Positions 171-61,163 of a DNA stretch of 64,000 bases are shown here, one piece after another. Source of the stretch: Treponema sp. (lineage in GTDB: Bacteria > Spirochaetota > Spirochaetia > Treponematales > Breznakiellaceae); NCBI GenBank assembly GCA_009777335.1, contig WRMC01000002.1:124001-188000 (forward strand), written 5' to 3'. Positions within the stretch are counted from its first letter, which is position 1, and each line of letters opens with the position of its first letter. The notes below the pieces were generated by a model. The model was not told the DNA's origin. It worked only from the letters and a program-made list of their open reading frames with translations, and made no database searches. The position numbers and the translations under genes were made by a program.

Positions 171-180
171 TAGGTTTGAT
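171..180 (+). repeat. Left boundary motif of repeat locus 1
   Basis: TAGGTTTGAT at 171-180 is the same sequence that starts the C unit at 577 and is inverted at the end of the locus (854-863). It therefore looks like the outer left boundary of a roughly 690-bp composite (171-863). The bases between it and unit A1 include GGCTC, which can pair with GAGCC near 382-386. Confidence 0.4.
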
Positions 181-195
181 AATGGCTCCTTAATC

Positions 196-400
196 CAAGA
201 CCTCATTATTCCTTCACCGCTGGACAAAAACATGCCCCTAGCGGCTCCAGCGGCTCTGACTACTCAATCCTGTAATCTAATGAACCAAATCTTTCTCTAT
301 TGATTGAGTAGTCAGACCGAAATCGCCGCCAGGAGCATTTTTTGCTCCAGCTGAGCAAGTAATGCGCGGTTGGACTTAGAAGAGCCTTTAATAATCAATC
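196..400 (+). repeat. Interspersed repeat unit A, copy A1
   Basis: This is one of four copies of an intergenic unit; the others start at 4690, 17074 (inverted) and 34821. Shared blocks are an AAGACCTC start, CGCTGGACAAAAACATG, a GCGGC/GCCGC outer stem (241-245 with 325-329), the hairpin TTGCTC-CAGCT-GAGCAA, and an AGAAGAGCC end. The centre is variable but palindromic: CTGACTACTCAATC (256-269) is perfectly complementary to 302-315. No ORF is carried. A folded RNA or a MITE-like DNA element both fit. Confidence 0.8.
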
Positions 401-576
401 TTCCAAGTGTGATGGGGGAAGAGAAATTTTGATAGATACATGACCAGAGTGTCAGTCACTCTGTGCTGGGCTCTATAGAGCTCCAGTGAAGTGATCATCA
501 TCCTGGGCTATCACCATACGCAGTAATCATCTCTTACCCATAGGTGTAGAGTAAATATGCTTTACCACCAGGTAAT
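401..576. other. Linker between units A1 and C1
   Basis: There is no gene here. A TCTTCC/GGGAAGA hairpin follows unit A, then a CAGAGTG/CACTCTG hairpin and a small GCTCTATAGAGC palindrome. The sequence TAATCATCTCTTACCCAT is shared with locus 2 (near 5008-5025). Hairpins at this position differ in sequence between loci, as they do inside unit A. Confidence 0.5.
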
Positions 577-863
577 TAGGTTTGATCTCGCCACACGAGT
601 GGGCAAACACTGGGAGGGGTGGGAGTTGCTTGGGGCTAGGAATATCTGGGAATTCTCCGCCGGAGGAGACCTCGGACGAAGCAGAATAGGATATAATGAG
701 AAAATCTCCGGCATCCAGTATGTGCGAGGGAAGCTGAACGCAATGATAGAATATGAGAAACTGGGTGCCGGGGGCTCCGTAGGCGGGTTCATCTCAATTC
801 CTAGACCTGAGCGACACCCACCCCTCATGTGGTTAGAAAAAATAAGTGGCGAGATCAAACCTA
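577..863 (+). repeat. Interspersed repeat unit C, copy C1, with an 18-bp perfect inverted end
   Basis: The ends are perfectly inverted: TAGGTTTGATCTCGCCAC at 577-594 against 846-863. Inside is the conserved C core (about 616-830), also found at 16783, 35110 and 60883. Recognisable blocks are AGGGGTGGG, CTAGGAATATCTGGG, CTCCGCCGGAG (a hairpin), AGCAGAATAGGAT, CCAGTATGTGCGA, AAACTGGGTGCCGGGGG and CTCAATTCCTAG. The blocks CTAGGAAT and ATTCCTAG near the two sides can pair, as can the outer G-rich and C-rich ends. An open frame across the unit (557-955) is not conserved in the other copies, so I do not call a gene. Confidence 0.8.
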
Positions 864-4689: not shown

Positions 4690-4910
4690 CCAAGACCTCT
4701 ATACTCCTTCACCGCTGGACAAAAACATGGCCCCCGCGGCTCCAGTGGCATGACTACACAGTTTGCATATTGGCAGTGTAAAATTAATTGTGTAGTCAAG
4801 CCAAAATCGCCGCAGGGACCATTTTTTGCTCCAGCTGAGCAAGCACTGAGCGGTTGGACTGAGAAGAGCCTTTAATCAATCCTCCTCCAAGCGAGGTAGG
4901 TGGGGAAGAG
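4690..4910 (+). repeat. Interspersed repeat unit A, copy A2
   Basis: The conserved A blocks are present: CAAGACCTC, CACCGCTGGACAAAAACATG, GCGGC/GCCGC, TTGCTCCAGCTGAGCAAG and AGAAGAGCC. The inner stem is TGGCATGACTACACA (4746-4760) against TGTGTAGTCAAGCCA (4789-4803), 14 pairs with one A-A mismatch. It is related to the stem of A1 but differs at several paired positions. Confidence 0.8.
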
Positions 4911-5097
4911 TGATGAAAAAGGCAGACATAGGTGTCATATTTCTGAGGGCGGAACCCCTAGGGGTTTAGTGGGGCCATCAGTACCCTGGGGTATCATCAT
5001 ACACAGTTAATCATCTCTTACCCATGTATGGGGAGGGGATAGAGATGATGTACCGCGTGTGGTGATATCTTCCATGGTGTTACATTGGTTATACCAT
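4911..5097. other. Spacer of repeat locus 2
   Basis: No gene is seen. It contains a perfect palindrome AACCCCTAGGGGTT near 4956-4969, a GACA/TGTC hairpin just after unit A2, and the TAATCATCTCTTACCCAT block shared with locus 1. Locus 2 has no C unit. Confidence 0.45.
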
Positions 5098-5289
5098 GCA
5101 GATGGTTCTCGATGATCATCTTCTATCGAACCACCCGTATTGTACTGTGCTGGTGCAGCAAAAATCTCCGGCGGCGACTTCGGCTGCTGAATTGATCTAT
5201 ACATACTAGAATGGGAGTATGGGATGCAGGCCGCTAGGAGCCGCAGGGGATTGTTTGCTGACCAGCGATGGGGGATATGGTCTGTCTTC
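5098..5289 (-). repeat. Interspersed repeat unit B, copy B1 (inverted)
   Basis: It is nearly identical, in opposite orientation, to 60601-60792; by eye only a handful of bases differ over about 180. Read on the minus strand it shares the A-unit plan: CGCTGGTCA, CCCCTGCGGCTCC, an inner GGC.TGC/GCA.GCC stem, GTCGCCGCCGGAG and a TGCTG/CAGCA hairpin. Confidence 0.8.
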
Positions 5290-16734: not shown

Positions 16735-16773
16735 AAAAGACCTCAGGTGCAGTTCCCCGCTGGACAGGAAACA
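16735..16773. repeat. Terminal inverted repeat of repeat locus 3, left end
   Basis: This 39-base stretch (AAAAGACCTCAG...GACAGGAAACA) is an imperfect inverted copy of 17226-17261, the outer end of unit A3. The two define a 527-bp element, 16735-17261, with ends of about 36 bp. Confidence 0.7.
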
Positions 16774-16782
16774 ATCTGCAAG

Positions 16783-17024
16783 AGGGGTGGGGGCCGCTCA
16801 GGTCTAGGAATTGAGATGAACCCGCCTACGGAGCCCCCGGCACCCAGTTTCTCATATTCTATCATTGCGTTCAGCTTCCCTCGCACATACTGGGTACCGG
16901 AGCTTACTTCATTATCCTATTCTGCATAACTCGCGGTCTCCTCCGGCGGAGAATTCCCAGATATTCCTAGCCCCAAGCGACCCCCACCCCTCCCTGTGTT
17001 TGTTTACTTAGGTGGCAAGATCGA
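16783..17024 (-). repeat. Interspersed repeat unit C, copy C3 (inverted)
   Basis: The core 16783-16993 closely matches C1 over most of its length on the minus strand. The flank at 17011-17024 is a variant of the GATCTCGCCAC end, but its inverted partner is missing; the A-type terminal repeat (16735-16773) takes its place. Confidence 0.8.
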
Positions 17025-17073
17025 CTTTATGCCTACACGCTTCATCACTCTTCCCCCACGATAACATTTGTAG

Positions 17074-17261
17074 GATTGATTATTAGAGGCTCTTCTCAGT
17101 CCAACCGCTCGGTGCTTGCTCAGCTGGAGCAAAAAATGCTCCTGGCGGCGACATTGGCAGGAAAAAAGTGCTAATTACTGGAATACAGCTATAGGACTTT
17201 CCTGCCACCGGAGCCGCTAGGGGCATGTTTTTGTCCAGCGGTGGACTGCGCATGAGGTCTT
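17074..17261 (-). repeat. Interspersed repeat unit A, copy A3 (inverted)
   Basis: All A blocks are present on the minus strand. The inner stem is a different sequence from A1 and A2: TGGCAGGAAA (17198-17207 read on minus) pairs with TTTCCTGCCA (17155-17164 read on minus), 10 pairs. GTCCA-CCGC-TGGAC forms a further perfect hairpin at the outer end. Confidence 0.8.
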
Positions 17262-17303: not shown

Positions 17304-17405
17304 GCCCCTGCCAGGGGGACCACGGCGCAGGGGCTAACTGCTTGCCGTTGCTTCCTTCCGGACCTGGCGGAGTTGGGCGGCAGCTCCTCGCATGGTTCCT
17401 GACAG
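17304..17405 (-). ncRNA. ffs: Signal recognition particle RNA (4.5S type)
   Basis: The minus strand has the invariant domain IV loop GTCCGGAAGGAAGCAAC (about 17346-17365), flanked by CTGCCGCC and CGGCAAGCAG. The ends GTCAGGAACCATG and CGTGGTCCCCCTGGC pair to close a rod of about 100 nt. With Ffh it targets ribosomes making membrane proteins to FtsY. The 3' part AGCCCCTGC...GCAGGGGCTTTT also forms an intrinsic terminator. Ends are estimates. Confidence 0.93.
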
Positions 17406-20348: not shown

Positions 20349-20377
20349 AGTATAGCATCACCACAAACTCGTGTCGC
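20349..20377 (-). promoter_or_regulatory. Promoter upstream of the M16 peptidase
   Basis: On the minus strand GCGACA (20372-20377), 17 nt and TGC-TATACT (20349-20354). The ATG follows nine bases after the -10 box, so the leader would be only 2-3 nt. Confidence 0.45.
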
Positions 20378-21341
20378 TTACCTTCCGGGCTATTTCGTTG
20401 ACCAGAACCAATAGGATCAGGTTTATGATGGAATCAAAAAAACCTATGGCCGCAGCGAAGGAGAAGTTCCCCACTCCCGTTACCAGGCCTATCTGGTAGA
20501 CATAGGTAGAAATTATTTCCGAGGTCATGCGGTTGAGATCGTTCTGCATAAGGAAGGCCTTCTCGAAGCCTATGGACATGATGTGCCCCACCCGCAGGAT
20601 CAACAGGATGATCACCGTGGGTATGATGGCGGGGATGTCGATGTTCTTGATCCGCTGGAACCGGGTGGCTCCGTCTACCACCGCCGCCTCGTGGAGTTCC
20701 GGGTCCACCGCCGAAAGGGCCGCCAGGAAGATGATGGAATTGAAGCCTATGGTCTGCCAGGCCCCGGACCAGACAAAGAGATGGGGAAAGGCCGAGGCGC
20801 TGGACATGAGATCCCTGGGGTAGTTGCCGGTGATTTGATTATAAACGACCCCGTAGAATCCCACCCGGGGGTGCAGGGCCACCAGGAGCATCCCCACCAG
20901 GACAATTTCAGAGATAAAGTAGGGCAGGTAGGTAGACATTTGGACGAATTTTTTATAGGGGTAAAACCGGGCGGAATGGAGCGCCAGGGCCAGGATGATG
21001 GGGATGGGGAAGACCGCAAAGAGGTTATATAAGGAAAGGACCAGGGTGTTCCGGATAAGCCGCCAAAAAATGGGGGAGTTAAAGAAGCGGGTAAACTGGC
21101 CCAGGCCTATCCAGGGGCTGCCCCAGATGCCCAGTTCTATGGTGTAGTCCTTAAAGGCAATCTGGACTCCGTACATGGGCATGTATCTGAAAACGAGGAG
21201 CCAAACCGTGGGGACCAAGAGAAAGACATAGAGCTCCCAGTTGGCGATCATATCCCTTTTGTAGCCCTTGTAAATATTTATTTGCCGGGTCCAGGCGGAT
21301 TCTTTTTTAACCTTTCCTGCTTCCATGTGCTCATGCTCCAT
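20358..21341 (-). CDS. Sugar ABC transporter permease, LplB family (copy 1), 327 aa
   Basis: It is an inner-membrane subunit for oligosaccharide or polyol uptake, with six predicted membrane segments. The first is LYVFLLVPTVWLLVFRYMPM. The cytoplasmic EAA loop, DPELHEAAVVDGATRFQRI, binds the ATPase. It lies 12 bp after a second LplB-type permease and close to three binding lipoproteins, but no YtcP partner or ATPase gene is present in this cluster. The ATPase is probably a shared MsmK-like protein encoded elsewhere. Confidence 0.88.
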   Translation of the reverse strand: MEHEHMEAGKVKKESAWTRQINIYKGYKRDMIANWELYVFLLVPTVWLLVFRYMPMYGVQIAFKDYTIELGIWGSPWIGLGQFTRFFNSPIFWRLIRNTLVLSLYNLFAVFPIPIILALALHSARFYPYKKFVQMSTYLPYFISEIVLVGMLLVALHPRVGFYGVVYNQITGNYPRDLMSSASAFPHLFVWSGAWQTIGFNSIIFLAALSAVDPELHEAAVVDGATRFQRIKNIDIPAIIPTVIILLILRVGHIMSIGFEKAFLMQNDLNRMTSEIISTYVYQIGLVTGVGNFSFAAAIGFFDSIINLILLVLVNEIARKVSDTSLW

Positions 21342-21353
21342 CTTGGCTCCATG

Positions 21354-22280
21354 TTACCACAAACTGGTCTCATTTAGCTTCCTGGAAATTCCGTTTACCA
21401 GGATTAACAGGGTAAGGTTGATCACCGAATCAAAGAGCCCCACCGCTGAAGCGAAAGAAAAATTCCCGGTCCCCGACACCAGGCCAACCCGGTATACATA
21501 GGTAGAAATTATTTCCGAGGTCAGGCGGTTAAGGTCATTCTGCATGAGGAAGGCTTTTTCAAAGCCCACGGACATGATGCTCCCGGCCCTGAGGATAAGG
21601 AGGATCGTAATCGTCGGGAGGATGGCCGGGATGTCGATGTAGCGGACCCTTTGGACCCGGGTGGCCCCATCGACTATGGCCGCTTCGTGGAGCTCCGGGT
21701 CCACCGCCGAAAGGGCCGCCAGGAAGATGATGGAGCTAAAGCCCACGATCTGCCAGGCCCCGGACCAGACATAGAGATGAGGAAAGGCCGCAGCGCTGGC
21801 GAAGATGTTCCGCGGATACTCTCCGGTAAAGTAGTTATAGACATTGGCGTAGAGACCCACCCGGGGGTGGAGGACTATCATGAGCATCCCTACCAGAACC
21901 ACCTCGGAGATAAAAAAGGGCAGGTAGGTAACCATTTGGATAAACCTTTTATAGGAGGGGAAGCGCATGGTGTTGAGGGTCAAAGCCAGGATGATGGGGA
22001 TGGGGAAGACCGCAAAGAGGTTGTAGAGCGAAAGGGTGAGGGTGTTTCGGAAGACCCGCCAAAAAACAGGGGAATGAAAAAACCGGGTAAACTGGTAGAA
22101 CCCCACCCAGGGGCTGCCCCAGATGCCGTCCCGGAAGGTGTAATCCCTAAAGGCGATCTGCACCCCGTACATGGGGACATACCTAAAGATGATGAGCCAG
22201 ACCGTGGGGATCAATAAAAAGAGGTATAACTCCCAGTTGGCCCTGGCGTTTCTTTTAAGGAGTCTGATTTTTGGGTTCAC
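21354..22280 (-). CDS. Sugar ABC transporter permease, LplB family (copy 2), 308 aa
   Basis: It is a close paralogue of the next permease and of the one at 38254, with the same membrane layout and EAA loop (DPELHEAAIVDGATRVQRV). It ends in RKLNETSLW, shared with copy 5. Two LplB-type permeases in tandem may form the transport channel as a heterodimer in place of the usual LplB-YtcP pair. A terminator-like hairpin separates it from the binding protein just upstream, which would lower permease expression relative to that protein. Confidence 0.88.
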   Translation of the reverse strand: MNPKIRLLKRNARANWELYLFLLIPTVWLIIFRYVPMYGVQIAFRDYTFRDGIWGSPWVGFYQFTRFFHSPVFWRVFRNTLTLSLYNLFAVFPIPIILALTLNTMRFPSYKRFIQMVTYLPFFISEVVLVGMLMIVLHPRVGLYANVYNYFTGEYPRNIFASAAAFPHLYVWSGAWQIVGFSSIIFLAALSAVDPELHEAAIVDGATRVQRVRYIDIPAILPTITILLILRAGSIMSVGFEKAFLMQNDLNRLTSEIISTYVYRVGLVSGTGNFSFASAVGLFDSVINLTLLILVNGISRKLNETSLW

Positions 22281-31943: not shown

Positions 31944-32861
31944 ATGCAGATTTCATTGCCAAAGTACCGGCTAAAGGATTTCCTTAATAACCGCTGGTTC
32001 TATTTGCTGTTACTGCCGGGTTTGACCTATTTCTTCATTTTCCGATACATCCCCATGTGGGGTCTTCGTATTGCTTTTATGGATTACAACATGTTTAATC
32101 CCTCCGAAAGCACCTTTATTGGGATGGAAAATTTCATGAGGCTCTTTTCCCGGAATACCTTCGTTCCGGTCTTGTGGAATACCATCAGGATCAGTCTCTT
32201 GCGTCTCTTTGCAGGGTTCCCCATTCCTATCATCCTCGCCCTGATGATGAACGAGATGCGGAGCCTTATGTACAAAAGGACGATCCAGACCGTATTGTAC
32301 CTGCCCCACTTTATCTCCTGGGTAATCATGGCGGGGCTCATGATTAACCTCTTTGACCCCTCAGGGGGAGTTATTGCCGGCATCATCCGGTTTTTCACCG
32401 GTGAGACCCCCATGGTCTTAACCAACAGAAGAATGTTCGTTCCCATGCTGGTCGCATCGGGGATTTACAAAGAAATGGGCTGGGGTACCATCATCTACTT
32501 CGCTGCCATCAGCGGCATCGATTCGGAGCAGTACGAGGCGGCCACCATAGACGGGGCCTCCCGCCTTACCCAGGTGTTCAGGATTACCATCCCCTCCATC
32601 ATGCCCACCATTATCATACTGTTCATCCTCAACTGCGGAGGTATCCTTAACGCAGGGTTTGAGCAGGTCTTTATGTTGTATTCACCCCCGGTCTACGAGG
32701 TGGCCGATATCATCGATACCTTCGTTTACCGCATGGGGATAATCAGGAACGATTATGCCTTTAGCACCGCTGCAGGGTTCTTTAAATCGGTGGTCGCCTT
32801 TATTCTGATTGTCTCGGTCAACCAGCTCGCCAGGCTGACGGACAATCAAGGTATATTCTAG
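31944..32861 (+). CDS. Sugar ABC transporter permease, LplB family (copy 3), 305 aa
   Basis: It has six membrane segments and the EAA loop (DSEQYEAATIDGASRLTQV). The ribosome site AAGGAGG is 6 nt from the ATG. It differs from copies 1, 2 and 5 in its N-terminus (KDFLNNRWFYLLLLPGL) and C-terminus (NQGIF), and nearly matches copy 4 at 33880. It is followed after 14 bp by a YtcP-type permease, its normal partner. The binding protein and ATPase are not in this cluster. Confidence 0.9.
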   Translation: MQISLPKYRLKDFLNNRWFYLLLLPGLTYFFIFRYIPMWGLRIAFMDYNMFNPSESTFIGMENFMRLFSRNTFVPVLWNTIRISLLRLFAGFPIPIILALMMNEMRSLMYKRTIQTVLYLPHFISWVIMAGLMINLFDPSGGVIAGIIRFFTGETPMVLTNRRMFVPMLVASGIYKEMGWGTIIYFAAISGIDSEQYEAATIDGASRLTQVFRITIPSIMPTIIILFILNCGGILNAGFEQVFMLYSPPVYEVADIIDTFVYRMGIIRNDYAFSTAAGFFKSVVAFILIVSVNQLARLTDNQGIF

Positions 32862-32875
32862 AGGAGGAAGCTAAG

Positions 32876-33763
32876 ATGATTAAACAAACCACCGGCGAAA
32901 AGGTCTTTGGGGCCTTCAATTATGTTTTCTTCTTTATATTAGCAGTGGCCATGATATATCCCTTCTGGCATATCATCATGACCAGTTTTTCTTCTGCTGC
33001 GGAAACCTCCAGGGGCGGTATTTTCCTTTGGCCCCGGGGTTTTAACGTAAACGTCTACCGCGGTGTCTTCAGGAACCCCCAGACCTATACGGGGTACCAG
33101 ACCACCATCATGGTAACGGTTTTGGGGACCTTTGGGGGCCTGGCAATTACCGCCATGACCGCCTATGCCTGTTCGAAGCAGTTCCTGCCCTTCGTATCGG
33201 TCATCATGCTGGCCATCCTCTTTACGATGATTTTTAACGGCGGTATGATTCCTAACTACCTCCTGATCCGGAACCTGAACCTCATCGACAATAGGCTGGC
33301 TCTTATCTTGCCTGGTATGGTCAGTCCCTTCCATATAATCATTATGAGGACCTTTTTTAGGACCATTCCCTCATCACTGGAAGAGTCGGCCAAGATAGAC
33401 GGGGCCAATGATGTCTACATCTTTGCCCGGATTATCATCCCCCTTTCCAAGGCCAGTTTAGCTACCATAGGCCTCTTTATTGCGGTTGGTTACTGGAACG
33501 ACTTCTTTAGTACGGTCCTTTATATTAACTCCAGCAACAAGTGGTCCATGATGGCGGTCCTCCGGAACATGATTACCAATACAGCCACGGCCATGGCCGC
33601 GGCGGGTATAGCTGCCAATGCGGACAACGAGCTTGAGGCGGTTACCGAGACCTCTGTAAGGGCCGGTACCATCGTCGTTGCCACTGTCCCCATTCTGGTG
33701 GTCTATCCCTTCCTCCAGAAGCACTTTGTAAAGGGTGTCATGATCGGGTCCATCAAGGGCTAA
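32876..33763 (+). CDS. Sugar ABC transporter permease, YtcP family, 295 aa
   Basis: This is the second half of a heteromeric permease. After FNYVFFFILAVAMIYPFWHI come five more membrane segments, an EAA loop (SLEESAKIDGANDVYIF) and the family end HFVKGVMIGSIKG. It directly follows copy 3 LplB with a GAGGAGG site, so the two should form the channel together. A large hairpin with a T-run comes 24 bp after the stop. Confidence 0.9.
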   Translation: MIKQTTGEKVFGAFNYVFFFILAVAMIYPFWHIIMTSFSSAAETSRGGIFLWPRGFNVNVYRGVFRNPQTYTGYQTTIMVTVLGTFGGLAITAMTAYACSKQFLPFVSVIMLAILFTMIFNGGMIPNYLLIRNLNLIDNRLALILPGMVSPFHIIIMRTFFRTIPSSLEESAKIDGANDVYIFARIIIPLSKASLATIGLFIAVGYWNDFFSTVLYINSSNKWSMMAVLRNMITNTATAMAAAGIAANADNELEAVTETSVRAGTIVVATVPILVVYPFLQKHFVKGVMIGSIKG

Positions 33764-33786
33764 GATTGAAGTACAGACCGTTTTAG

Positions 33787-33858
33787 ACCGCCTGACTACA
33801 GGATGGGCATGCCAGAGTGGAAACACTGGCTGCTCCTTCTGGGGCCAGGCGGTTTTTT
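33787..33858 (+). terminator. Branched terminator or leader structure between ytcP and lplB copy 4
   Basis: The outer stem ACCGCCTG (33787-33794) pairs with CAGGCGGT (33846-33853), followed by TTTTTT. The 51-nt interior contains a GGGCATGCC palindrome and CCAG...CTGG, more than a plain terminator needs. It could be an attenuator for the next gene. Confidence 0.65.
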
Positions 33859-33879
33859 ATTCATTTAGGAGAAAAATGG

Positions 33880-34797
33880 GTGGCTTTAGCAATTACCAAG
33901 TACAGACTTAAAGATTTTCTTAATAACCGCTGGCTCTATTTACTCTTATTGCCAGGGCTGATCTACTTCTTTATTTTTAGATACCTTCCCATGTGGGGGC
34001 TGCGCATAGCCTTTCTGGACTATAACATGTTTGTCCCCGACGAGAGCGTCTTTATAGGTTTGGAAAACTTTATGAGGCTCTTTTCCCGGAATTCCTTTCT
34101 TCCGGTCCTCTGGAACACCTTAAAAATTAGCCTTTTGCGGCTCTTCTGCGGCTTCCCCATCCCCATCATCCTGGCTCTGATGATGAACGAGATGCGGAAC
34201 CTCCGCTATAAAAAGACCATACAGACCGTTTTATACCTTCCCCACTTTATCTCCTGGGTAATACTCACGGGGCTTATTATCAATATGCTCGACCCCGCTG
34301 GGGGCGTCATAGCCGGGATGATTAGGTTTTTTACCGGCGAATCCCGCTTAATCCTCATAGATAGAAGAGCCTTTGTGCCCCTTCTGGTAATAACGGGGAT
34401 TTATAAGGAAATGGGCTGGGGAACCATCATCTATTTCGCCGCCATGAGCGGGATTGATCAGGAACTCTACGAGGCAGCTACCATAGACGGGGCCTCAAGG
34501 ACCGCCCAGGTGTTCAGAATCACTATTCCCTCCATTATGCCCACCATAGTGATCCTCCTCATCCTGAATTGCGGGGGCATCCTCAGTGCCGGCTTTGAGC
34601 AGGTCTTTATGCTCTATTCACCCCCGGTCTACGAGGTGGCCGACATCATCGATACCTTTGTCTACCGCATGGGGATAATCAGGAACGATTACGCCTTTAG
34701 TACCGCCGCCGGGTTCTTCAAGTCCGTGGTGGCCTTTATCCTGATAGTCTCGGTGAATCAGATAGCGAGGATGACGGAGAATCACGGGATATTCTAG
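33880..34797 (+). CDS. Sugar ABC transporter permease, LplB family (copy 4), 305 aa
   Basis: I start it at GTG 33880, 8 nt after GGAG, because this makes it the same length as copy 3 and its protein then aligns from the first residues. It has the same membrane layout, EAA loop (DQELYEAATIDGASRTAQV) and C-terminus. The two genes are clearly a duplication. Copy 4 has no YtcP gene behind it; repeat locus 4 begins 24 bp after its stop. It may pair with the YtcP protein upstream. Confidence 0.9.
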   Translation: MALAITKYRLKDFLNNRWLYLLLLPGLIYFFIFRYLPMWGLRIAFLDYNMFVPDESVFIGLENFMRLFSRNSFLPVLWNTLKISLLRLFCGFPIPIILALMMNEMRNLRYKKTIQTVLYLPHFISWVILTGLIINMLDPAGGVIAGMIRFFTGESRLILIDRRAFVPLLVITGIYKEMGWGTIIYFAAMSGIDQELYEAATIDGASRTAQVFRITIPSIMPTIVILLILNCGGILSAGFEQVFMLYSPPVYEVADIIDTFVYRMGIIRNDYAFSTAAGFFKSVVAFILIVSVNQIARMTENHGIF

Positions 34798-34820: not shown

Positions 34821-35005
34821 TAAGACCTCATGCGCAGTTCACCGCTGGACAAAAACATGCCCCTAGCGACTCCTGTGGCAGGGAAGCCTTTTTTCTATAA
34901 TCGTCTATGTTGTATAGCACTTTTGTCCTGCCAATGTCGTCGCCAGGAGCATTTTTTGCTCCAGCTGAGCAAGCACTGAGCGATTAGACTGAGAAGAGCC
35001 TTAAA
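34821..35005 (+). repeat. Interspersed repeat unit A, copy A4
   Basis: The A blocks are present. The outer stem reads GCGAC (34866-34870) and GTCGC (34939-34943), where every other copy has GCGGC and GCCGC: both sides changed and pairing is kept. The inner stem is TGGCAGG (34876-34882) with CCTGCCA (34927-34933), of the A3 type. Confidence 0.8.
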
Positions 35006-35109
35006 TTATCCATCCTCCAAGTGTGATCGGGGGGAAGATAAATAACGAAGTTTTTCGACAAAGGTGACAGACACCATGGGCTGAGGTGATAGGTTAAGCC
35101 TTGTATATT
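35006..35109. other. Linker between units A4 and C4
   Basis: No gene is seen. It is shorter than the linker of locus 1 but keeps the CCTCC...GGGGGG hairpin directly after A and a GGTG/CACC hairpin. Confidence 0.4.
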
Positions 35110-35460
35110 GGCTTGATCTCGCCGCCTAAGGGGCCTAACACGAGAGGGGTGGGGGTCGCTGTGGGCTAGGTAATATCGGCGCATACATGCGCAGAATTCC
35201 CCGCTGGAACCCCCACCGAGGCTCGGACGCTCTATGAGCGTAGGAGCCGAGGTTCCCCTCTGGAAGGAGACCGCGAGAAAAGCAGAATAGGATAATGAAG
35301 GAATCTCCGGCATCCAGTATGTGCGAAGAAAGCTGAACGCAGCAACTTAAGACAAGAAACTGGGTGCCGGGGGCTCCGTAGGCGGGTTCATCTCAATTCC
35401 TAGACCATGGCGGCACCCACCCCTTTTGTGGTTGTTTAATATAGGTGGCGAGATCAAACC
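35110..35460 (+). repeat. Interspersed repeat unit C, copy C4, longest form
   Basis: The inverted ends GGCTTGATCTCGCCGCC (35110-35126) and 35444-35460 pair with one mismatch and one G-T. Relative to C1 the hairpin CTCCGCCGGAG is replaced at the same site by a much longer stem (GAACC, GGCTC and ACGCTC with their complements, about 35205-35258), and a GCGCAT/ATGCGC hairpin is added just before it. Confidence 0.75.
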
Positions 35461-35483
35461 TGGGCAGTTATTATTAAGCCAAT

Positions 35484-37320: not shown

Positions 37321-38226
37321 TTAACCCTTGATGGAGCCTATCATGACGCCCTGGGCAAAGTACTTCTGTATGAAGGGATACAGAACGATAACCGGCAGTG
37401 AACCCACGACGATGACCGCGAAGCGCAGTAACTCCATGGTACCCCTCATCTGTTCGAAGAGGTCCGGGTCCGTGAAGTCCTGGAAGCTGACGGTGTTCAT
37501 GATAAGGATCTGGCGCAGGAACAACTGCAGCGGGTACAGGTTCCGGTCGGTCAGATAGAGCAGGGCCCCAAAGTAGGAGTTCCAGTTACCAACCCCGTAC
37601 CAGAGGACCAGAACGGCCATAACCGCCTTGGAAAGGGGCAGGATGATCTGGAAAAAGTACCTGGTGTTACTGCAGCCGTCGATCTGGGAGGCCTCCAGCA
37701 ACTCATGGGGGATACTGCTCTGAATAAAGGTTCTGGCGATGATCATGTTATATACCGAGATAAGCCCGGGGATAATCATGACCATGCGGGTGTTTAAGAG
37801 CCCCAGGTTCCTCATAAGGAGGAAGTTTGGAATCATACCCCCGCCGAAGAACATGGTGAAGGTAAAGAGGAACATAAAGAAGCCCTTAAAGGGAAGGTTC
37901 CTCCGGGCAAATACATAGCCCGCCACCATGGTCCAGAACACACTCAGGGCCGTAGCGCTGATGGTGTAAATAAAGGAGTTTACGTAACCAATTCGAATAA
38001 AGTGGTAACTAAACACCAGCTCGTAGCCCGAAAGGGAGAACCCTACGGGCCATAAGAATACTCTTCCCTGAAGCAGGGCCTGGCCGTCACTAAAGGAGGC
38101 GGAGACCACGTAAATTAGGGGATACAATACTACGATTGTGAGCAGGGTTAGAAAGCTGTATACAAAAACATAGTATATTTTATCGTCCAGAGTATCTTTC
38201 ATCTTCGTCTTCTTAATCTTTGCCAT
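37321..38226 (-). CDS. Sugar ABC transporter permease, YtcP family (third cluster), 301 aa
   Basis: It is an inner-membrane permease with six segments (YVFVYSFLTLLTIVVLYPLI first), an EAA loop (PHELLEASQIDGCSNTRYF) and the end YFAQGVMIGSIKG. It lies 27 bp after the LplB copy 5 gene and before binding protein 4. A Cys in the EAA loop (DGCSN) replaces the usual Ala. It pairs with LplB copy 5 as the channel. Confidence 0.9.
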   Translation of the reverse strand: MAKIKKTKMKDTLDDKIYYVFVYSFLTLLTIVVLYPLIYVVSASFSDGQALLQGRVFLWPVGFSLSGYELVFSYHFIRIGYVNSFIYTISATALSVFWTMVAGYVFARRNLPFKGFFMFLFTFTMFFGGGMIPNFLLMRNLGLLNTRMVMIIPGLISVYNMIIARTFIQSSIPHELLEASQIDGCSNTRYFFQIILPLSKAVMAVLVLWYGVGNWNSYFGALLYLTDRNLYPLQLFLRQILIMNTVSFQDFTDPDLFEQMRGTMELLRFAVIVVGSLPVIVLYPFIQKYFAQGVMIGSIKG

Positions 38227-38253
38227 ATTGTTGACTCCTCCGTGTCTTATTGG

Positions 38254-39231
38254 TTACCACAAACTGGTTTCGTTGAACTTTCTTGATATTCCGTTCACTA
38301 TGACCAGCAGCGTGAGGTTAATGACGGAGTCAAATAAGCCTACGGCTGAAGCGAAAGAAAAGTTCCCTGTTCCTGTTTCCAGACCAACCCGGTACACATA
38401 GGTGGAGATAATCTCTGACGTCATCCTGTTAAGGTCATTCTGCATTAAGAAGGCCTTTTCGAAGCCGATGGACATGATCTGCCCGGCCCTCAGGATTAAC
38501 AGAATGGTGATGGTTGGAATGATGGCCGGAATGTCGATGTGGAAGACCCGCTGGAACCGGCTGGCGCCGTCAATGAGGGCCGCCTCATGGAGTTCCGGGT
38601 CTACCGCCGAGAGGGCGGCCAAGAAGATGATGGAACTATAGCCTACGCCCTGCCAGGCCCCGGACCATACATAGAGGTGGGGGAAGGTGGTGGCGGAGCT
38701 GATTAGGTCCCTTGGATAAGATCCGGTGAAGAAGTTATACAGTACCCCATAGAGACCAACCCGCGGATGGAGTACGGTCATCATCATACCTACAAGGACG
38801 ACAACCGAAATAAAGTAGGGCAGGTAGGTGGCCATCTGGATAAACTTCTTGTACTTGATGTGCTTCATTGAGTTTAAGGCCAGGGCCAAGAGGATGGGGA
38901 GGGGGAATACCGCAAAAAGGCCGTAGAGCGATAAGACCAGGGTATTCCGCAGTAGGGTAAAGAAGATGGGGGAAGTAAAGAAGCGCTGGAACTGCATAAA
39001 GCCGACCCAGGGGCTGCCCCAGATTCCGTACCGGAATGAAAAGTTCTTAAATGCAATCTGGACGCCGTACATGGGGACGTACCTAAAGATAATGAGCCAG
39101 ACTAGCGGGAGTAAAAGGAATATATAGAGCTCCCAGTTAGCCCTCAAATCTTTTTTCATTTGCTTCCAACGAAGCCCCCCTTTAGCACCCTTTCCCGGGG
39201 CGTCTGCCATTATCATCGGGGTATCAGCCAT
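38254..39231 (-). CDS. Sugar ABC transporter permease, LplB family (copy 5), 325 aa
   Basis: This is the first gene of the third transport cluster (lplB, ytcP, binding protein). It has six membrane segments and the EAA loop DPELHEAALIDGASRFQRV. Its C-terminus RKFNETSLW links it to copies 1 and 2. The N-terminal 30 residues are basic and cytoplasmic. Promoter TTGACA-N17-TATGCT lies about 90 bp upstream. Confidence 0.9.
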   Translation of the reverse strand: MADTPMIMADAPGKGAKGGLRWKQMKKDLRANWELYIFLLLPLVWLIIFRYVPMYGVQIAFKNFSFRYGIWGSPWVGFMQFQRFFTSPIFFTLLRNTLVLSLYGLFAVFPLPILLALALNSMKHIKYKKFIQMATYLPYFISVVVLVGMMMTVLHPRVGLYGVLYNFFTGSYPRDLISSATTFPHLYVWSGAWQGVGYSSIIFLAALSAVDPELHEAALIDGASRFQRVFHIDIPAIIPTITILLILRAGQIMSIGFEKAFLMQNDLNRMTSEIISTYVYRVGLETGTGNFSFASAVGLFDSVINLTLLVIVNGISRKFNETSLW

Positions 39232-60600: not shown

Positions 60601-60792
60601 GAAGACAGACCATATCCCCCATCGCTGGTCAGCAAACAATCCCCTGCGGCTCCTAGCGGCCTGCATCCCATACTCCCTGTCTAGTATGTATAGAACAATT
60701 CAGCAGCCGAAGTCGCCGCCGGAGATTTTTGCTGCACCAGCACAGTACAATACGGGTGGTTCGATAGAAGATGATCATCGTAGACCACCTGT
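60601..60792 (+). repeat. Interspersed repeat unit B, copy B2
   Basis: It is nearly identical to the inverted copy at 5098-5289. It lies where unit A lies in the other loci, directly upstream of unit C5. Confidence 0.8.
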
Positions 60793-60882
60793 AAGGTATA
60801 GCCGATGAAGTATCCATATTACCCATAAAATGGGGGAGAGATGATTAAAACGATAATAACCCGCCAGGTTAAGCATACATGG

Positions 60883-61095
60883 GAGGGGTGGGGGTCGCTT
60901 GGGGCTAGGAATATCTGGGAATTCTCCGCTGGAGGAGACCGCGGGTAAAGCAGAATAGGATAATGAGGTTATCTCCGGCATCCAGTATGTGCGAGAAAAG
61001 CTGAACGCAATGTTGGTAGCCTAGAAACTGGGTGCCGGGGGCTCCGTAGGCGGGTTCATCTCAATTCCTAGACCTGAGCGGCCCCCACCCCTCCT
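60883..61095 (+). repeat. Interspersed repeat unit C, copy C5
   Basis: The core of unit C is present, with CTCCGCTGGAG for the variable hairpin and pairing outer GGGGTGGGGG/CCCCCACCCC ends. The long TTGATCTCGCCAC flanks of C1 and C4 are absent. Confidence 0.8.
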
Positions 61096-61130
61096 GTCGA
61101 TGGTATAAAATGCGGTTTTTTTTTCTTACC

Positions 61131-61163
61131 TGTCCAGCAATGAAGGAATATTGAGGTCTTAGA
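61131..61163. repeat. A-type terminal inverted repeat, right end of locus 5
   Basis: TGTCCAGCAATGAAGGAATA... read in reverse matches the outer end of unit A1 (196-226). It closes locus 5 as 16735-16773 closes locus 3. Confidence 0.6.

Follow-up and report, generated by a model that had tools for sequence, protein, structure and literature searches.

Small mobile hairpin elements form a large family spread through many related spirochaetes

Introduction

The closest known system in behaviour to the repeats described here is that of the REPINs, which consist of inverted hairpin units with compensatory changes (PMC3116915). The pairing of G with T in stems has been used earlier to judge whether REPs function as RNA (PMC3733652), and likewise for Borrelia stem-loops derived from IS605 (PMC2775950). 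Pipelines for finding RNA motifs have, for their part, found structured DNA elements of the attC kind (PMC8632094).

Here we examine five intergenic loci within a 64,000-nucleotide stretch of a Treponema sp. genome, hereafter the window, and conclude that they are members of an extensive family of small mobile hairpin elements spread through many related spirochaetes. The literature searched, which covered few subscription journals, contained no description of this hairpin family.

Results

The five loci are composites of recurring hairpin modules

The sequence-only reading of the window had described mosaics of three modules, A, B and C, at five loci. All five were found where that reading placed them and in the order it gave: A+ C+ at locus 1, A+ B- at locus 2, C- A- at locus 3, A+ C+ at locus 4 and B+ C+ at locus 5, the arrangement at locus 3 being the A-then-C order read on the opposite strand. 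Self-comparison of the window recovered all pairwise matches between the loci (E as low as 1e-88), including 5083-5289 against 60807-60601 (94.7% identity, E 1e-88), 584-829 against 17022-16779 (E 1e-87) and 195-541 against 4690-5025 (E 2e-41). Hairpins were located with two models: R1, a covariance model built from 26 copies, none of them from the window's genome, and R2, a model of A, B and a variant of A termed A2.

Locus 1 (171-863, + strand), delimited by self-comparison and its terminal inverted repeats (TIRs), comprises a left TIR, an A hairpin, a spacer and a complete C element; a TAGGTTTGAT terminal repeat starts exactly at position 171, and its inverted copy ends exactly at 863. The A hairpin occupies 219-351 on the + strand (R2, E 4e-25), with the more stable fold, by folding energy, on the - strand. 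The complete C element of 287 bp spans 577-863 (+), with TIRs TAGGTTTGATCTCGCCAC at 577-593 and 847-863, and its hairpin at 604-834 is matched by R1 on the - strand (E 1.2e-7), the + strand being the better-folding one. Locus 2 (4690-5289, +), defined by self-comparison, joins an A hairpin at 4714-4835 (+; R2, E 8e-21) to a B hairpin at 5149-5266 (-; R2, E 2e-24). At locus 3 (16735-17261, -), a composite of C and A with the end repeats AAGACCTC...CCGCTGGACA at both ends, the C hairpin lies at 16773-17003 (+ in R1 orientation, E 7.2e-9; better-folding strand -) and the A hairpin at 17123-17239 (-; R2, E 3e-24). Locus 4 (34821-35462, +; right TIR at 35446-35462) combines an A hairpin at 34844-34965 (+; R2, E 1e-23) with a C hairpin at 35115-35437 (+), which self-comparison and copy alignment showed to be split by a nested palindrome, D (GAACCCCCACCGAG...GAGGTTCCCCTC), at 35207-35260 (+), within about 35206-35262. 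Locus 5 (60601-61163, +) consists of B and C and is closed at its right end by an A-type end repeat (61131-61160); its B hairpin is at 60624-60741 (+; R2, E 5e-24) and its C hairpin at 60873-61101 (- in R1 orientation, E 1.7e-8; better-folding strand +). R1 thereby detected the window's three uninterrupted C modules, with E values from 7e-9 to 1e-7.

Locus 3 directly adjoins the SRP RNA gene (17306-17404), its end repeat starting directly past the terminator-like T run of that gene, and a relative (G019) likewise has an R1 element some 100 bp away from its SRP RNA gene. Elsewhere in the window (20358-22280, 31944-34797 and 37321-39231), several paralogous genes, each some 300 codons long, are 72-79% identical in DNA sequence.

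Copies are numerous in the host genome

The host genome (G000) is a 2.16-Mb draft that is 77% complete. BLAST returned 55 match rows for an A-type query and 61 for a B+C query, which puts both A and C at some 40 locations or more. The catalogue of retrieved stretches lists 30 sites with a full A hairpin and about 40 with a C hairpin, the latter count including the B+C search, and B and A2 are also present. These copy numbers are lower bounds, as several contigs end inside copies. The window is thus a small sample of the copies of this family in its host genome.

Anatomy and signs of mobility

The C unit measures 283-299 bp, or 329 bp with a nested D, and is built of a terminal repeat of 19 bp, some 18 variable bases and a hairpin of about 225 bp, followed by the mirror image. 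The terminal repeat TAGGWTTGATCTCGCCA occurs at 52 sites in the host genome with at most two mismatches, versus none for a reversed-pattern control, and TIRs bound the C units. On their left side, A elements open with the terminal repeat of C, followed by AAGACC(T/A)...CGCTGG(A/T)CA. The hairpins of A, A2 and B are homologous; their lower stems are unlike in sequence but remain paired, and their arms covary with one another at seven pairs. The apical stem of A bears out the earlier description of stems that change in sequence and stay paired, as some copies have GACTACTCAAT/ATTGAGTAGTC there and others GACTACACA/TGTGTAGTC or GGCAGG/CCTGCC.

Palindrome D, found in 11 exact-pattern copies, has 39-56 bp between its conserved ends, with a variable middle. 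Within C it occupies three distinct sites, at every one of which the other aligned C copies run on without a break, and this nesting is the clearest sign of movement. Together with the terminal inverted repeats and dozens of dispersed copies, such nested insertions uphold the part of the sequence-only reading that considered a mobile element. No target-site duplication was visible at 12 composites and 14 C units, and comparison of the dnaX/SRP locus with sister species for an empty site showed that synteny is lost there.

Hairpins also occur in close pairs. All ten such pairs in a relative with a complete single-contig genome of 4,059,867 bases (G042) are convergent, facing each other as in a two-ended design, and the hairpin flanks in this genome have no gene in common. 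Between two facing hairpins in G042, positions 1685-1900 of stretch L062 are taken up by a roughly 107-bp sequence repeated in tandem (94% identity between the copies), which itself contains a small palindrome.

As the sequence-only reading had noted, no ORF is common to the copies, and none has an ORF of its own. A shared frame seen in self-comparison suggested that the core might be coding, but a conserved frame is excluded by loops of 2, 4, 5 and 17 bases. A candidate autonomous copy on contig C5, a 3.2-kb stretch between facing A ends, proved to hold ordinary genes.

The family is spread through one spirochaete family

A DNA search with C matched only a 26-base core, in two relatives, one of which was G042. 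In G042 and G050 this same core sits within hairpins whose outer stem differs greatly yet pairs. A covariance-model search of relatives revealed the family in 24 of 149 genomes: the R1 matches fall in 17 genera, all from one family. Outside the window's genome, R2 gave just two weak matches, both in a single relative. An exact pattern of 22 core bases, searched over 84,980 species, gave 91 stretches, and all 80 of the 91 that were listed carry titles of Treponema, Spirochaetaceae or Spirochaetia. The isolate codes of these stretches resemble those of samples from termite guts.

Stems covary

In a 26-copy alignment, 96.0% of paired cells were complementary, versus 77.8% in shuffles. Two-sided changes occurred at 27 of 37 pairs (15.3 in shuffles), numbering 157 against 42 in shuffles, and the covariation score was 0.458 against 0.120; none of 500 shuffles reached the observed number of pairs with two-sided changes. 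Shifting the partners by one to three columns abolished the signal. Among sister copies with at most six differing pairs, compensated changes outnumbered one-sided ones by 173 to 94. The proposed selection on a fold is thus borne out by stem covariation far above shuffles, and the wobble pattern described below shows that one particular strand is kept foldable. The accompanying argument that plain MITEs would keep their stems identical did not survive, since compensatory changes have been reported in REPINs, which are mobile DNA (PMC3116915).

One strand of each hairpin is kept foldable

Our first wobble test counted G.T and A.C pairs on the pairs of the R1 strand and found them equal (40:42 and 55:55), as expected of strand-neutral palindromes. 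This result was an artefact: the test was circular because the R1 model had already picked pairs fitting its own strand, and refolding the opposite strand gave a lower energy and wobble counts different from those of the R1-strand pairs. A strand-symmetric consensus fold of whole alignments was noisy, with spurious A.C pairs in the SRP RNA control as well, and was replaced by an arm-to-arm alignment. Stems of tRNAs were dropped as a wobble control, there being too few tRNAs.

In the strand-neutral recount the two arms were aligned with scores equal for both strands, and the conserved core was excluded. On the C+ strand, which starts GAGGGGTGGGGG, this gave 120 G.T against 35 A.C pairs, an excess that is spread along the stem and holds in 13 of 15 informative genomes (p 0.007). 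Among the C copies of the host genome the counts were 116 and 6. The SRP RNA of the same group, counted on its consensus fold as a control, gave 66 G.T against 21 A.C, so the G.T share is equal in the two (0.77 for C+, 0.76 for SRP RNA). Folding energy agrees: C+ is the more stable strand in 27 of 27 host-genome copies and, in other genomes, in 88 of 108. All 40 tested copies of A, A2 and B were more stable on the strand opposite to that of C. Energy is a weak test of strand, as SRP RNA shows no energy bias, and the wobble count is the better evidence. The excess of G.T on one strand implies that one strand of each hairpin is kept foldable, either as RNA or as single-stranded DNA. Within composites, the two end hairpins fold on opposite strands, each strand reading from the inside of the element outward.

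Search for a mobilising enzyme

No Y1_Tnp gene was matched in three element-rich drafts that are 66-77% complete (G000, G019 and G023), while such genes are present in G042, G050 and G053. Y1 transposase genes are exceptionally numerous in two relatives, G026 (28 matches) and G016 (22 matches), neither of which matches R1. Within the host genome, 77% complete, no TIR pair encloses a longer unit and no full-length insertion sequence shares these ends. The stretches examined contained no longer copy with an ORF, and no transposase or recombinase tied to the family. A possible GTAG tag was also inspected: most short copies have TGTAGAG in the core, where the C copies of the host genome read GAGATGAACCCGC.

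Discussion

The repetition of these elements, their terminal inverted repeats, their modular and nested structure, the covariation, the strand-specific fold and the spread within one spirochaete family are established. As for what the elements are, we put at about even odds that the family consists of non-autonomous mobile elements, long imperfect hairpins with common terminal repeats, that are transposed as folded single-stranded DNA. A recombinase or transposase encoded elsewhere would recognise the hairpin once one strand is exposed and folded, and may read the conserved unpaired core together with the end repeats. The stem sequence could then drift freely provided that pairing persists; one-sided changes on the folded strand would remain as G.T pairs, and compensated changes would bring back full pairing. 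Composites of the A...C and A...B kinds may have arisen as hairpin units inserted in or beside one another and then moved jointly.

A G.T excess is expected for selection on RNA as well as on single-stranded DNA, and the main alternative, which we regard as doubtful, is that the hairpins are transcribed structured RNAs carried by a mobile element, with a conserved internal-loop core and a function that keeps the stems paired. Covariation across genera, an unpaired core that is conserved across as many as 108 distinct copies, the wobble asymmetry of the host C copies and a G.T share matching that of SRP RNA all speak for it. The sequence-only reading had named a large structured RNA as one candidate and proposed looking for one long transcript per locus, but A, A2 and B fold best on the strand opposite to that of C, so one transcript cannot hold both best folds. 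Moreover, C has one and the same repeat at its two ends, next to which the bases vary; no internal promoter was seen, and a conserved -10 box or other promoter-like sequence is absent from either end; the four orientations to flanking genes, called by ORF length only, are about equal (19, 15, 16 and 13); and no Rfam covariance model matches. Taken together, the opposite strands, the lack of a promoter, the random orientation and the lack of an Rfam match favour a DNA substrate, and dozens of near-identical dispersed copies would be rare among functional RNAs. A narrower form of the RNA reading, in which the hairpins are a bacterial non-coding RNA class whose internal-loop core is conserved and which multiplies in the manner of a short interspersed element, dozens to a genome, within one spirochaete family, we consider somewhat less probable still.

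Two readings that remain within DNA fare worse. The hairpins could be strand-neutral palindromes, forming cruciforms that serve, for example, as protein-binding sites, whose symmetry is kept by arm-to-arm copying with no selection on a single strand; the surplus of compensated changes among sister copies and the near absence of wobble pairs from A hairpins in the A+ fold fit this view. It is nevertheless unlikely, being largely refuted by the wobble asymmetry, as the strand-unbiased count puts G.T far above A.C on one strand, and arm-to-arm copying would erase the mismatch blocks that are conserved at the same places in all copies. Least probable, to the point of being very unlikely, is mobilisation of REPIN-type elements by RAYT (Y1) transposases. 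REPINs do form inverted hairpin pairs with compensatory changes like those seen here (PMC3116915), and three of the genomes, G042, G050 and G053, have Y1_Tnp genes; against this, the element-rich drafts G000, G019 and G023 lack Y1_Tnp matches, G016 and G026 combine more than 20 Y1 genes each with no R1 match, and the host genome's C copies do not conserve the GTAG tag.

Movement as folded single-stranded DNA is our preferred reading. The more than 100 natural variants of one hairpin, with a free stem and a fixed core, are good material for finding an enzyme that reads folded DNA, or else a protein that reads the RNA. The family also carries two warnings: a mobile hairpin can yield strong covariation in a repeat family, and wobble counts mislead when pairs are defined on a single strand.

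Like REPINs and the REP-RAYT system, the spirochaete elements are dispersed extragenic palindromes, often in inverted pairs (PMC3116915, PMC3733652), that combine conserved segments with a variable stem carrying compensatory changes, and REPINs are thought to move as single-stranded DNA. However, REPINs measure 20-100 bp, whereas the spirochaete units measure 120-300 bp and carry terminal repeats of 19 bp. They also show no conserved GTAG or CGTC tag, and their occurrence does not follow that of Y1 transposase genes. With MITEs such as NEMIS/Correia, RUP and Nezha (PMC3733652) they share a non-coding nature, terminal inverted repeats, high copy number and intergenic location. They differ from MITEs in being large covarying hairpins with an internal-loop core conserved across genera, and no target duplication was visible at the composites and C units inspected, nor was a parent insertion sequence found in the 77% complete host genome. 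Like bacterial interspersed mosaic elements (BIME, with RIME as a further such element), they are intergenic mosaics of different palindromic modules, but with much longer modules that are nested and are conserved across one family of spirochaetes. Finally, they resemble attC sites, sequence-variable hairpins with conserved unpaired features that are functional as folded single-stranded DNA (PMC8632094). Unlike attC, the copies have, on inspection of the alignment, no RYYYAAC...GTTRRRY boxes at the stem base, and, in contrast to attC cassette arrays, the spirochaete elements are dispersed, with their conserved part in the middle of the stem.
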